From positions 62,001 through 126,000 of the forward strand of contig NZ_AKJA01000132.1 in NCBI RefSeq assembly GCF_000282575.1: a stretch of 64,000 nt of DNA. Direction: 5' to 3'. The notes beneath the pieces were generated by a model that saw nothing but the letters and a program-made list of their open reading frames with translations, was not told the DNA's origin and did not search any database. The number at the start of each line of letters is the position of its first letter. Within the stretch, counting starts at the first letter, position 1. Shown here piece by piece: positions 44,940 through 48,604 of this stretch. Source of the DNA: Herbaspirillum sp. YR522 (GTDB lineage: Bacteria > Pseudomonadota > Gammaproteobacteria > Burkholderiales > Burkholderiaceae_D). The translations under genes and the position numbers were made by a program.

Positions 44940-45419
44940 TCAACCCTCGCTGGGCGACATCTGGCTCTGCAGATAATTCTGGATGCCGACCTTGGAGATC
45001 AGGTCGAGCTGGGTTTCGAGCCAATCGATATGTTCTTCGGTGTCGTCCAGGATCATCAGGAACAGGTCGCGCGAGACATAGTCGCCGTGCTGTTCCGAAG
45101 TGGCGATGCCTTCCTTGACGGTCTTGTGGGCAGCGCGTTCCAGCTTCAGGTCGCATTCCAGCATTTCGGCCGTGTTCTCGCCGATCATCAGCTTGTGCAG
45201 CGCTTGCAGGTTGGGCAGGCCGTCGAGCATCAGGATGCGGTCGATCAGCTTGTCGGCATGTTTCATCTCGCCGATCGATTCGGCATATTCCTTGGCGGCA
45301 ATCTTGTCGAAGCCCCAATGCTTGTACATGCGCGCGTGCAGGAAATATTGATTGATCGCGGAAAGCTCGTTGGTCAATTGCGCATTGAGCAACTTGATGA
45401 CTGCTGGATCGCCTTTCAT
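44940..45419 (-). CDS. bfr: Bacterioferritin
   Basis: A 159-residue subunit of the 24-mer iron-storage cage. [20 protein letters not shown] starts the helix bundle; ferroxidase residues are in [27 protein letters not shown] and [11 protein letters not shown]. The heme-binding Met is the one in EMKHAD. AGAGG precedes the ATG at 45419. A Fur-like site lies about 130 bp upstream, and bfd, tonB and exbBD are next on the same strand. Confidence 0.98.
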
Positions 45420-45546
45420 GGGAACCTCTGGAAAATGTTGTTGAGTGCGGTACGCCGTGCAGGACCGGTTGTCGATGTGTCCATTGTTTGCAGCAGGCGG
45501 GAACGGCCGAATCTTAACGCAGGCGTTTCGAATCTTCACCATTAAT

Positions 45547-45567
45547 TAGCGCGAATCATTCTTGCCC
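45547..45567. promoter_or_regulatory. Candidate Fur box upstream of bfr
   Basis: CGCGAAT-C-ATTCTTG fits the 7-1-7 Fur pattern (TGCGAAT-N-ATTCTCA-like in betaproteobacteria) with about three mismatches. Confidence 0.4.
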
Positions 45568-45625
45568 GTGTTTGAGTCGTGGCTGGCGCGGCGCCGGCCG
45601 GTGCTCGGGCAGGGCCCAAGAAACG

Positions 45626-45664
45626 GATAAAGCCTCCGACGCCGAAGGCGCGGGAGGCTTTATC
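45626..45664 (-). terminator. Hairpin after exbD
   Basis: GATAAAGCCTCC and GGAGGCTTTATC form a 12-pair stem around a 15-base loop with an inner GCC/GGC. On the minus strand no clean T-run follows, so termination may be partial. Confidence 0.6.
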
Positions 45665-45703
45665 GTGCAACCGGCGAAGGCTTGCCGGTCACCAGCGAGA
45701 GGC

Positions 45704-46120
45704 TTATTTCTTCTCGGGATCGGTCACGAAGCCGATCTTGCCGAGTCCGCCGGACTGGGCTGCGGCCATTACCTGCGCCACCTTTTCATACTGGGTGGTG
45801 CGTTCGGCGCGCAGATGCAGTTCCGGTTGCGGCTGCTTTTGCGCCGCGGCGGCAATACGCACGCTCAACTGGTTGCTATCGATCTTTTCTTCGTTCCAGA
45901 ACACGTCGCCACCGGCATCGATGGAAAGATTGATGCTTTCCGGCTTGACGTCGTCAGGCTGGCTGCTGGCCTTGGGCAGGTCGATCTTCACCGCATGGTT
46001 CATCACCGGAATGGTGATGATGAAGATGATCAGCAGTACCAGCATCACGTCGACCAGCGGCGTGGTGTTGATTTCCGGGTTGAAGTCGTCGTCCGAGTCG
46101 GACAGTGAACCCATTGCCAT
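45704..46120 (-). CDS. exbD: Biopolymer transport protein ExbD
   Basis: A 138-residue inner-membrane protein with one N-terminal helix, PLVDVMLVLLIIFIITIPVM, carrying the proton-coupling Asp24, and a periplasmic domain. It completes the TonB-ExbB-ExbD complex that energises outer-membrane receptors. Its ATG shares one base with the exbB stop. It is the last gene of the tonB operon. Confidence 0.96.
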   Translation of the reverse strand: MAMGSLSDSDDDFNPEINTTPLVDVMLVLLIIFIITIPVMNHAVKIDLPKASSQPDDVKPESINLSIDAGGDVFWNEEKIDSNQLSVRIAAAAQKQPQPELHLRAERTTQYEKVAQVMAAAQSGGLGKIGFVTDPEKK

Positions 46121-46851
46121 TACGCTCTCCCGACAGCTGCCAGCTTGGCCTTGGTGCCGTTTTTCTCGGATTCTTCCGATGCTGCACGGGAGCCGGTGAC
46201 AAACAGCGCATGCAGGTCGAAGCCGAACTTGTTCAACTTGGCGATGGTGGTCTTGTTGCCGCGTACCAGCGCGTTGTAACCGAAGGTGGCGGGAATCGCC
46301 ACGGCCAGGCCCAGTGCGGTCATGATCAGGGCTTCGCCCACGGGACCGGCGACCTTGTCGATGCTGGCCTGGCCGCTGGTGCCGATCGATACCAGCGCGT
46401 GGTAGATGCCCCAGACGGTGCCGAACAGGCCGACGAACGGCGCCGTCGAACCCACCGATGCCAGCACGGCCATGCCCGTCTGCAGCTTGCCCGACGCTTC
46501 ATCGATGGCCTGGCGCAGCGACAACGTGACCCAATCGCTGACCGACAACTGGTCATGCAGGTGACCCTTGTGTGCGGTGTGATGACTCATGGCGGTCACG
46601 CCGGCCTTGGCCACTTCGGAAAACGGGTTTTCGGAACCCAGCGTGGCCACGCCTTCCGGCAGGCTGGTGGTGTCCCAGAATTGATGACCGGCGGCTTCCG
46701 ATGCCTTGCGGAAGCGCAGCAGCTGAAATGCCTTGGTGATGATCACGTACCACGACGCGATCGACATGGCCAACAACAGGACGGCGACGCCCTTGGTGAC
46801 GAAATCTCCTTGTGCCCAAAGGCTTTCCAATCCGTACGGACTAACTTCCAT
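46120..46851 (-). CDS. exbB: Biopolymer transport protein ExbB
   Basis: A 243-residue MotA/TolQ/ExbB-family proton channel with three helices (about 19-38, 130-155 and 170-195). TGMAVLASVGSTAPFVGLFGTVWGI and PVGEALIMTALGLAVAIPA are the family signature. It lies 33 bp after tonB and starts behind AAGGAAG. The short cytoplasmic tail is Lys/Ala-rich. Confidence 0.96.
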   Translation of the reverse strand: MEVSPYGLESLWAQGDFVTKGVAVLLLAMSIASWYVIITKAFQLLRFRKASEAAGHQFWDTTSLPEGVATLGSENPFSEVAKAGVTAMSHHTAHKGHLHDQLSVSDWVTLSLRQAIDEASGKLQTGMAVLASVGSTAPFVGLFGTVWGIYHALVSIGTSGQASIDKVAGPVGEALIMTALGLAVAIPATFGYNALVRGNKTTIAKLNKFGFDLHALFVTGSRAASEESEKNGTKAKLAAVGRA

Positions 46852-46884
46852 GATGACTTCCTTAGCTACTGTGATGGTTAAAAA

Positions 46885-47583
46885 TCAGTTCAACTTGAAG
46901 GCAATGCTGCCGGTGGTGGCGACGACGATGGCACGGCCATCCTCGATATAGGGTTTGTAGACCGCGCGCATCACGGCGCGGCGCGCCTCTTCGTCCAGTC
47001 GCGGAAAACCCGACGACTTGGTGATCTCGACCTTCTCGGCGCGGCCGCTGGTGTTGACCGTTACCTTGAAGTTCACCACGCCTTCTTCACCCATGCGGCG
47101 CGATACGGCTGGATAGTTGGAACGCGGCGGCTCGATGTATTCGATGCCGGAGGTGATCTGCTTGGGCAGCACCGGCCCTGGTGGGGCGGCCGGGGCCGGC
47201 GTCGGCGCGGCGGCTACCTGCGGTGCCGGCTCGGCCGGCGCCGGCGGCTGTGGCGGTGCGGTGATGGCAGTCGGCGCCGGTGCTTCCGTGACCGGGATCG
47301 GCTTGGGGGGCTGCACTACCTTCTTGACCGTCTTGACCACCTTCGGCGGGGTCGGCTCGGCCTTGGGGGGCGCCGGTTCGGGCGCCTTCTCGGGCACGAT
47401 GAAGGTAGCGATCACTTCTTTCGGGATGGTGCTGGCGACCTGGTGGATCAGGCCGCTCTGGAGCGCATAGAAGAAGGCGGCGTGCAACAGGATGATCAGG
47501 CCAAGGGGGCCGATCTTCTTGACCTGGCGCATCAGCGCACTGGGGGAACCGTTACTCATAAAAGGAGATGGAATGGCGTTCAT
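46885..47583 (-). CDS. tonB: TonB energy-transducing protein
   Basis: A 232-residue protein with an N-terminal anchor (GPLGLIILLHAAFFYALQSG, about 25-44), a Pro/Ala/Lys-rich spacer (about 66-140, PEPAPPKAEPTPPKVVKTVKK) that spans the periplasm, and the C-terminal TonB domain from about 150 (NYPAVSRRMGEEGVVNFKVTV, RAVMRAVYKP). It transmits ExbBD energy to siderophore and heme receptors. It begins 9 bp after bfd. Confidence 0.95.
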   Translation of the reverse strand: MNAIPSPFMSNGSPSALMRQVKKIGPLGLIILLHAAFFYALQSGLIHQVASTIPKEVIATFIVPEKAPEPAPPKAEPTPPKVVKTVKKVVQPPKPIPVTEAPAPTAITAPPQPPAPAEPAPQVAAAPTPAPAAPPGPVLPKQITSGIEYIEPPRSNYPAVSRRMGEEGVVNFKVTVNTSGRAEKVEITKSSGFPRLDEEARRAVMRAVYKPYIEDGRAIVVATTGSIAFKLN

Positions 47584-47592
47584 GAATTCTAA

Positions 47593-47820
47593 CTACGCTG
47601 CTGCCATCGATGCATGGAAGATCACCGGGCGCGCGTTTTGATGTGCTTGATTGGTCTTGCTGAGACATTCACGGAGGACATTCTTGGCGCAAGAATGGCA
47701 TTTGCCGCAGCAAGTGCCAACGCCGAGTTGCTCGCGCAACTCGGCCATGGACGTCATGCCTGCATCAACCGCCTGATGGATCTTGCCTTCGGAGATGTTA
47801 TTACAAACACATACGATCAT
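47593..47820 (-). CDS. bfd: Bacterioferritin-associated ferredoxin
   Basis: A 75-residue [2Fe-2S] protein that reduces iron in bacterioferritin to release it. Ligands are Cys4 and Cys6 in MIVCVCNN and the later pair in GTCCGKCHSC. The C-terminal 20 residues (TNQAHQNARPVIFHASMAAA) are extra. It lies between the unknown 107-residue gene and tonB. Confidence 0.96.
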   Translation of the reverse strand: MIVCVCNNISEGKIHQAVDAGMTSMAELREQLGVGTCCGKCHSCAKNVLRECLSKTNQAHQNARPVIFHASMAAA

Positions 47821-47833
47821 TGTACGCCTTGCC

Positions 47834-47849
47834 GCCTGTTTTATCAGGC
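47834..47849. other. Small hairpin before bfd
   Basis: GCCTG-TTTTAT-CAGGC lies between the stop of the upstream unknown gene (47851) and bfd. It may modulate mRNA processing. Confidence 0.35.
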
Positions 47850-47850
47850 C

Positions 47851-48174
47851 CTATGCCGATCTCGCCCCAGATACGATGCGCGAGAAGAAGTTGAATTTCT
47901 CAGGCTGAGGCATCGTCCGTTCGACTACTGTGGCCCACTGTTCCGACAATTGCTGGCATGTTGCCCGCAATACCGGCGCCAGGTTGGGCAGGTCCGCCAG
48001 CGCCTTGAGGTGCCTTTCGATGACTGACGCCAGTTTGACGCAGCTCTGCGAGCCCTGCTGGTTGTTGGCGGTGTAGTGCGACATCAGATGCAGTACGGCA
48101 GAAACCAGAAGTTCAGGTTGGGCCGGCGCGCTGTTGGGTTCCACGAAGGCAGGTTGCATATTGTCGGTAACCAT
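47851..48174 (-). CDS. Unknown protein in the hemP-bfd-tonB operon
   Basis: A 107-residue soluble, mainly helical protein with no signal peptide: SAVLHLMSHYTANNQQGSQ, SVIERHLKALADLPNLAPVL and TCQQLSEQWATVVER suggest a helix bundle. I do not recognise a family. The ATG at 48174 is fixed by AGGAGA seven bases upstream. Position between hemP and bfd, and the Fur-like site before hemP, suggest a role in iron or heme handling, which is inference. Confidence 0.78.
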   Translation of the reverse strand: MVTDNMQPAFVEPNSAPAQPELLVSAVLHLMSHYTANNQQGSQSCVKLASVIERHLKALADLPNLAPVLRATCQQLSEQWATVVERTMPQPEKFNFFSRIVSGARSA

Positions 48175-48271
48175 CAAAGTCTCCTCACTTGGCTAGCTTT
48201 GCTGGCTCACGTCAACACCACATCAACGCTGGCTGGCCGGTTATCTACCGTACATATCGATCACTACCGCC

Positions 48272-48460
48272 TCAGGCGGTCAGGATCAGCTTGTTCAGCT
48301 GGGTCAAACGCAATTTGTAGATGCGCCCGCCATGGTCGATCTCGAGCTCGCGCATTTGTCGGAACAGGTCCGTGCTCTTGATACGGGTAATCGGAGTACC
48401 GTTGGCGGTCGTTCCGGGCTTGTTGCGACGGTCCACACCGTGATCATTCAGTTGGCTCAT
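48272..48460 (-). CDS. hemP: Hemin uptake protein HemP
   Basis: A 62-residue protein whose second half (TRIKSTDLFRQMRELEIDHGG and then YKLRLTQLNKLILT) is the HemP/HmuP domain. In other betaproteobacteria HemP/HmuP activates heme-receptor gene expression, possibly by binding nucleic acid. A strong AGGAGG site sets the ATG at 48460. It is the first gene of the tonB run and has a Fur-like box 14 bp upstream. Confidence 0.93.
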   Translation of the reverse strand: MSQLNDHGVDRRNKPGTTANGTPITRIKSTDLFRQMRELEIDHGGRIYKLRLTQLNKLILTA

Positions 48461-48473
48461 GACACCTCCTATT

Positions 48474-48494
48474 AAATGCGAACAATTCTTATTT
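48474..48494. promoter_or_regulatory. Candidate Fur box of the hemP-tonB operon
   Basis: AAATGCGAACAATTCTTATTT closely matches betaproteobacterial Fur sites and lies just before the hemP ribosome binding site, where bound Fur would block transcription under iron-rich conditions. Confidence 0.65.
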
Positions 48495-48604
48495 AGATTA
48501 TTTGTCATTTGCGCCGAGAATGCAAGGTTTTTATCAATGAGATTGATTATTTTTATCGTCTCGAGTTTCCGCGCGCCACGCGAGGGTGGGATTTGGTTGT
48601 CAAA

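Follow-up and report, generated by a model that had tools for sequence, protein, structure and literature searches.

A small helical protein encoded behind hemP as a predicted component of the iron-starvation response in Herbaspirillum and other proteobacteria

The hemP-U-bfd-tonB-exbB-exbD locus

The genome of Herbaspirillum sp. YR522 contains a row of iron-related genes that includes an open reading frame for a 107-residue protein without named family, which we refer to as U. The row is located on the minus strand of a 64,000-nucleotide stretch of contig NZ_AKJA01000132.1 (positions 62,001 to 126,000 of the forward strand), which was analysed as a whole, is termed the window and whose numbering is used throughout. 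It follows the order hemP, U, bfd, tonB, exbB and exbD, with bfr located at a distance of 284 nt from exbD (Table 1). The features of this locus and of its relatives make it very likely that U belongs to the iron-starvation response, and they lead to the prediction that it is repressed by Fur and activated by HemP.

A first-pass annotation of the same DNA had described all of these genes as a single iron operon, with Fur-like boxes before hemP and bfr and with U, equipped with a strong ribosome site, in its midst. All named genes were recovered in their places on the minus strand, with Pfam confirming every one except U, and the latter is indeed preceded by a ribosome-binding site and flanked by hemP upstream and bfd downstream. 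The proposal of a single operon may well hold for the row from hemP to exbD but probably does not extend to bfr, which we assign to a separate unit because of the 284 nt gap, the strong hairpin contained in it and a Fur-like box of its own. This hairpin was not called by a simple terminator scan, whose counts did not exceed those of shuffled sequences, and a search of Rfam (E up to 1) returned a single chance match in the region.

Table 1. Features of the hemP-U region in window coordinates.
Feature	Position	Strand	Evidence
Match to E. coli Fur consensus, AT-rich, hemP region	48539-48557	.	15/19
Second match overlapping the hemP Fur-like box	48478-48496
Fur-like box before hemP (TTAAATGCGAACAATTCTT)	48472..48490	.	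matrix 29.3 bits, rank 1 in window
hemP (HmuP/ChuP family regulator)	48272..48460	-	Pfam PF10636, E 1.9e-14
HmuP/HemP-responsive-element-like direct repeat	48201..48237	-	GCCAGC at 48237, 48233, 48206; ends 26 nt before U start
U ribosome-binding site GAGGAG	48181..48186	-	sequence; AGGAG-like block conserved in leader alignment
U, 107 aa, ATG at 48174	47851..48174	-	open reading frame, 107 codons
bfd, bacterioferritin-associated ferredoxin	47593..47820	-	Pfam PF04324 Fer2_BFD, 4.3e-13
tonB	46885..47583	-	Pfam PF03544 TonB_C, 1.1e-19
exbB	46120..46851	-	Pfam PF01618 MotA_ExbB, 1e-31
exbD	45704..46120	-	Pfam PF02472 ExbD, 2.4e-32
Strong hairpin 3' of exbD, probable transcript end	45627..45663	-	fold z -5.4 for surrounding 111 nt
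Fur-like box before bfr (ATTAGCGCGAATCATTCTT)	45545..45563	.	matrix 17.7 bits, rank 3 in window
bfr, bacterioferritin	44940..45419	-	Pfam Ferritin, 2e-38; NCBIfam bfr, 4.4e-72, above cut-off

Conservation and genomic context of U

While U is encoded in one copy in its home genome, relatives are found in many others. A scan of named genomes provided 275 candidate stretches, 192 of which encode a relative of U, and the best 80 of these 192, which were retained, are 61-95% identical and nearly all titled as Oxalobacteraceae genera. Within the home family, U was detected in 82 of 145 genomes, some of them with two copies, amounting to 94 copies in total. Sequence profiles identified the protein in 24 (profile A1) and 58 (profile A4) of 399 genomes of the order and in 20 of 369 genomes of the class (profile A3), with the weakest matches of A4 being doubtful, since several are located inside long frames and may be false. 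A profile built from other Burkholderiales families retrieved the window U as sole match among the frames of the window and of decoys (E 3.2e-22), and the same was found for a profile of 16 class-level members only (E 1.5e-14). These matches suggest that U is a member of an unnamed family of helical proteins of about 80-120 residues without evident signal sequence, which is distributed over beta- and gammaproteobacteria. At three loci, a second member of the family is found adjacent to U (L135:5342-5671, L143:5207-5476 and L178:5832-6176), some of these belonging to a more divergent GTLxLM type.

Judged by its conservation, U is a real gene. In four pairs of Herbaspirillum sequences, its dN/dS ratio amounts to 0.064, 0.076, 0.092 and 0.027, and is in each pair below the value obtained for bfd. 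Across 59 aligned relatives, Trp 80 is invariant (59/59), followed by His 55 (52/59) and Cys 45 (45/59). A C-terminal histidine, often as part of an -LH ending, is present in 20 of 38 divergent members but in none of the 21 close relatives as aligned (alignment A4). The protein was modelled with AlphaFold from 59 sequences as what is predicted to be a plain three-helix bundle, with helices encompassing residues 20-40, 44-60 and 67-87 and a mean pLDDT of 71.7. Searches with this model in Foldseek did not yield any match at E ≤ 0.001, with MIT domains scoring best, and the best Z value in VIA-align (10.5) is at a level that, according to the tool, is common for helical bundles.

Sequence comparisons have not placed U in any family of the libraries searched. 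It has no Pfam or NCBIfam family, weak Pfam matches (down to E 0.027) being below the cut-offs, it does not match the hemP domain PF10636 at E up to 1, and it contains no Pfam domain of TonB-dependent receptors. No family was found either in a Pfam search of A1-profile members, an NCBIfam search of A3-profile members or a Pfam search of eight class-level members and two small neighbours. Similarly, a sequence search of solved structures with U gave nothing below E 0.089, neither U nor the one distant member searched had a match among plasmid records, and no paper on the protein was found in searches of an open-access library.

In the first-pass annotation, an absence of U from homologous operons had been named as an observation that would speak against the proposal. 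U is instead a regular part of them, as hemP immediately precedes it in 106 of the 110 relatives that were fetched. On the downstream side, the same loci contain bfd in 83 and tonB in 77 cases, while exbD and bfr are in many cases lost beyond the ends of short fetched stretches. Among the 94 copies in the home family, 62 have hemP directly upstream on the same strand at a gap of 49-156 nt. The hemP family of Pfam is represented in 93 of the 145 genomes, and its occurrence is associated with that of U (both in 72, U only in 10, hemP only in 21 and neither in 42 genomes; Fisher p 8e-12, a value that serves as guide only because the genomes are related).

Outside the home family, the association extends to iron genes of various kinds. 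A core iron or heme gene was located within 5 kb of U in 23 of 39 loci that had supplied no seeds for the identification of such genes, compared to 1 of 40 control segments of 10 kb length from 12 U-bearing genomes. The count is 21 of 37 without L199, where the match is inside a 450-residue frame, and L194, which is the same place as L146. L199 is included in the 39 loci but was excluded from the counts of Fur sites and leaders described below, L218 gave no U frame, and an initial set, in which 22 of 38 loci have iron context but which had supplied some of the seeds, is not used as evidence. The seeds consisted of Pfam-confirmed DUF2325, CbiX, HmuY, HemS and PepSY proteins, whereas receptor, FeoB, HmuT and HmuU were named by eye. 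U resides between or beside a receptor and hmuSTU in ten loci (L136, L139, L140, L147, L193, L195, L203, L206, L211 and L223), near feoB in four (L144, L149, L178 and L184), near bfd or bfr in five (L154, L189, L198, L212 and L232) and by hemP and a receptor in three (L176, L196 and L202).

In loci of the Duganella/Massilia type, bfd and tonB after U are replaced by a DUF2325 protein. Such proteins adjoin U or are found in its vicinity (L056:5343-6650, L180:390-1733, L189:3400-4584 and L220:5320-6687), and they are placed directly downstream in the inspected Duganella-type loci. Other recurrent neighbours include a second small protein right after U with a CxxC...HLxIG pattern recognized by eye (L176:4715-4951, L185:5316-5540 and L197:4770-5042), two of which did not match any family in a Pfam scan, and small proteins with an EGYxDIxI-like stretch that are encoded in the vicinity of U and of a gene for a receptor or PepSY protein (L188:7721-7978 and L177:5051-5836), with the protein of L188 having no Pfam family. 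In L182 and L185, the genes after U encode a porin-like protein as well as FMN-binding-type and ApbE-type proteins (all named by eye except for the L182 porin), which possibly form a ferric-reduction cluster.

Fur-like sites and the AGCCAGC element

The Fur-like boxes proposed in the first-pass annotation before hemP and bfr could be confirmed with a matrix derived from 17 hemP-upstream sites of genera other than that of the window, which was used to scan both strands of the entire 64 kb. The maxima obtained in 20 local shuffles range from 7.9 to 17.1 bits. We built the matrix from the own group because the E. coli consensus alone fits this group badly. With this consensus, the best 19-mer of the window is again found before hemP (Table 1), while the bfr site matches at just 11 of 19 positions, which equals the 95% level of shuffles. 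At least 13 matching positions were found in 19 of 41 hemP leaders compared to 3 of 163 control stretches and 2 of 28 bfr leaders. In 76 distant loci of about 10 kb each, the highest-scoring Fur-like site is placed between -500 and +60 of U in 43 cases, where about 4.3 would be expected, and a site at U is among the top three in 52. The copies of U with the top site include some that lack iron neighbours, such as those of L186, L191, L224, L225 and L227. In silico, these results support a control of U itself by Fur.

A second conserved element is contained in the gap between hemP and U, whose alignment displays a block of GCCAGC ahead of the ribosome site. At least two copies of this hexamer within 100 nt of the start are found in the U leaders of 71 out of 80 Oxalobacteraceae loci, compared to 1 of 78 leaders of hemP, 0 of 55 of bfd, 0 of 51 of tonB, 0 of 46 of exbB, 0 of 45 of exbD and 1 of 51 of bfr, and the home genome contains the spaced pattern found in the window only once. 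In the home family, the pair precedes U in 25 of 30 hemP-positive but in 0 of 10 hemP-undetected genomes (p 3.5e-6). In the wider loci, it is present in 13 of 76 U leaders versus 1.2% of 100-mers drawn at random from these loci, and no other six-mer is as over-represented in doubled form as GCCAGC. The pair was also found in 9 of 33 leaders of TonB-dependent receptors but in none of the 23 hemP or 30 hmuSTU leaders of the wider loci.

The element resembles a described regulatory sequence. In alpha- and betaproteobacteria, the HmuP-responsive element has been reported to take the form of a direct repeat (PMC9241770). That of chuR from C. violaceum contains a doubled AGCCAGCC and is located at -26 nt (PMC9131926), thus sharing the type of repeat and the position of the element in the U leader. 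The locus also shares with the HemP/HmuP/ChuP regulon the upstream hemP and the Fur-like box that accompany the paired AGCCAGC repeat. The two differ in the nature of the target, since chuR, vbuA and shmR, the targets named in these accounts, all encode TonB-dependent receptors, whereas U is a small protein that is not a receptor, and the leaders of bfd, tonB, exbB and exbD of the same row lack the element. What appears new is the predicted presence of such an element, of the published HmuP(HemP)-responsive type, in the leader of a gene that does not encode a receptor.

With respect to its mode of action, a post-transcriptional activation was proposed for the HemP homologue ChuP (PMC9131926), whereas HemP is elsewhere described as DNA-binding activator or, in S. 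maltophilia, as repressor (PMC9241770, PMC9131926). As these accounts differ, the direction of HemP control of U is inferred.

Predicted regulation and possible role of U

The first-pass annotation had proposed U as candidate for a new iron/heme factor. The linkage to hemP and the Fur-like sites at U provide good support for this candidacy, with its iron part being backed by the genomic context and its heme part less certain in a home genome without detected HemS. The explanation that we consider probable on the whole describes U as an iron-starvation-response protein, which is controlled by Fur and HemP and acts as a cytoplasmic adaptor. Of its components, the regulatory membership is to be viewed with high confidence, while the role as adaptor is tentative. 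In the envisaged process, Fur loaded with iron would repress the hemP promoter, and a drop in iron would lead to the transcription of hemP-U-bfd-tonB-exbB-exbD. HemP would then raise the expression of U via the paired AGCCAGC repeat of the U leader, in the way in which relatives of HemP raise that of TonB-dependent receptors, with U being dosed like a receptor though it is not one. Presumably residing in the cytoplasm, U would bind a ligand or partner and serve as adaptor for iron or heme that has just entered the cell, acting beside HmuS where it is present and beside Bfd and Bfr where it is absent, and its core around His 55 and Trp 80 might constitute a binding or packing centre.

Several observations weigh against this explanation. 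U was not detected in 63 of the 145 home-family genomes, and in 16 of the 39 loci that had supplied no seeds, none of the core iron genes was found within 5 kb, although in two of them (L197 and L209) a hemP missed by the seeds was recognized by eye. The hemP-negative genomes of the home family in which the pair is absent are few and related, and in other families the pair does not track a nearby hemP (4/22 vs 3/38, p 0.41). The mean confidence of the structural model is limited and its matches are generic bundles, and the idea of a fixed Cys/His metal site in U was dropped in light of the incomplete conservation of Cys 45 (45/59) and the C-terminal histidine (20/59). In a study of H. seropedicae exposed to dipyridyl, RNA-seq identified only seven up-regulated genes, and the relevant portion of its text makes no mention of the operon (PMC6037834). 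Finally, a HemS domain protein was not found in the window genome, though hemP is kept, nor in four of six other genomes checked that contain hemP and U. Since hemP and U are retained without HemS, the breakdown of heme by HmuS appears unnecessary for the retention of U. A safer frame would thus be general iron handling or, as in C. violaceum, HemP-linked receptors for other ligands. In the home genome, U may even be the main target of HemP, because hemP is kept in the absence of HemS and both scoring receptor leaders look in-gene (18 of 26 leaders inspected).

The properties of U could also be explained in different ways. As a small helical protein tied to hemP and Fur boxes, which is found with many different uptake systems and also alone, U might act as regulator, relieving repression by Fur or tuning HemP as protein partner of either. 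A precedent is provided by Fpa (YlaN) of Gram-positive bacteria, a small helical protein that binds Fe(II), is tied to Fur and iron limitation and is described as capable of such function (PMC11559061). A model of the YlaN-Fur complex is contained at rank 49 in the Foldseek list for U, but this match is insignificant (E 1.8, TM 0.37), no sequence kinship between U and Fpa was found, with no YlaN family among Pfam matches up to E 1, U does not match any regulator family in Pfam, and it is itself placed behind Fur boxes. We thus regard a regulatory role as unlikely, and as distinctly unlikely its more specific version, in which U would be a Gram-negative counterpart of Fpa that binds iron or heme and feeds back on Fur or HemP to set the duration of uptake. 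In this case, U would be made only after both the release of Fur and the sensing of heme by HemP, and its control by both sensors would make it the connection so far missing between the perception of heme and the general response to iron. A function of U dedicated solely to the bfd-tonB-exbBD machinery, for instance as partner of ExbB/TonB or Bfd/Bfr in the cytoplasm, is quite improbable. The frequent presence of bfd and tonB downstream would agree with such a function, and so would the importance of the TonB system in H. seropedicae, where transposon mutants of TonB-ExbB-ExbD lose fitness under iron competition with Trichoderma exudates (PMC10516422), yet U is followed by DUF2325 instead of bfd-tonB in Duganella/Massilia-type loci, and in other families it is found alone or with hmuSTU or feoAB. 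The lack of a known domain or phenotype might finally point to an ordinary conserved frame that rides along with little role of its own, which the low dN/dS, the own leader element and the Fur boxes at stand-alone copies render highly improbable.

As extremely improbable we consider a role of U as RNA-binding reader of the AGCCAGC repeats in its own and in receptor leaders. Such a role would be in line with the occurrence of the pair before U and receptors but not before hemP and hmuSTU, and it was dropped since the pair is likewise found before receptors of genomes where U is undetected. In these genomes, it is found in 5 of 60 receptor leaders, compared to 1 for the reverse complement and a mean of 0.29 (maximum 2) for other permutations, with clear pairs resembling the HmuP-responsive element in L294 (genome G004), L304 (G029) and L330 and L333 (both G128). 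In U-positive genomes, the pair is present in 6 of 40 receptor leaders, two of which (L268 and L271) look in-gene, and shows no excess over the reverse complement with 5. The leaders covered comprise 18 of 26 in the home genome G000, 15 of 23 in G026, 7 of 15 in G022 and 17 of 38 in G132, and those listed for seven other U-negative genomes, whereas G008 and G041 were left out of the U-negative set after weak matches to U. Its presence in genomes without U assigns the pair to HemP or another factor rather than to U, in agreement with the published HmuP-responsive element.

Related arrangements have been described in other organisms. In Stenotrophomonas maltophilia, the operon hemP-hemA-smlt0796-smlt0797 is likewise controlled by Fur and combines hemP with small proteins of unknown function, but unlike the locus described here it includes a heme receptor and no bfd or tonB (PMC9241770). 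The neighbourhood of bfr, bfd and tonB-exbB-exbD is shared by six genomes of Collimonas, in whose description hemP and U are not mentioned in the part concerned with these genes (PMC4690342). For H. seropedicae, a library of RB-TnSeq mutants exists (PMC10516422).

Another small protein linked to Fur is FagA of P. aeruginosa, which was considered as a possible relative of U.

In summary, the comparison of sequences and loci strongly suggests that the U family is a real and so far overlooked part of the iron-starvation response. If this assignment is correct, it would define a family of the iron regulon across beta- and gammaproteobacteria that has no entry in Pfam or NCBIfam, and the control by HemP would extend beyond receptors. 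U would then offer a handle on the job of HemP in genomes that keep this protein without HemS.

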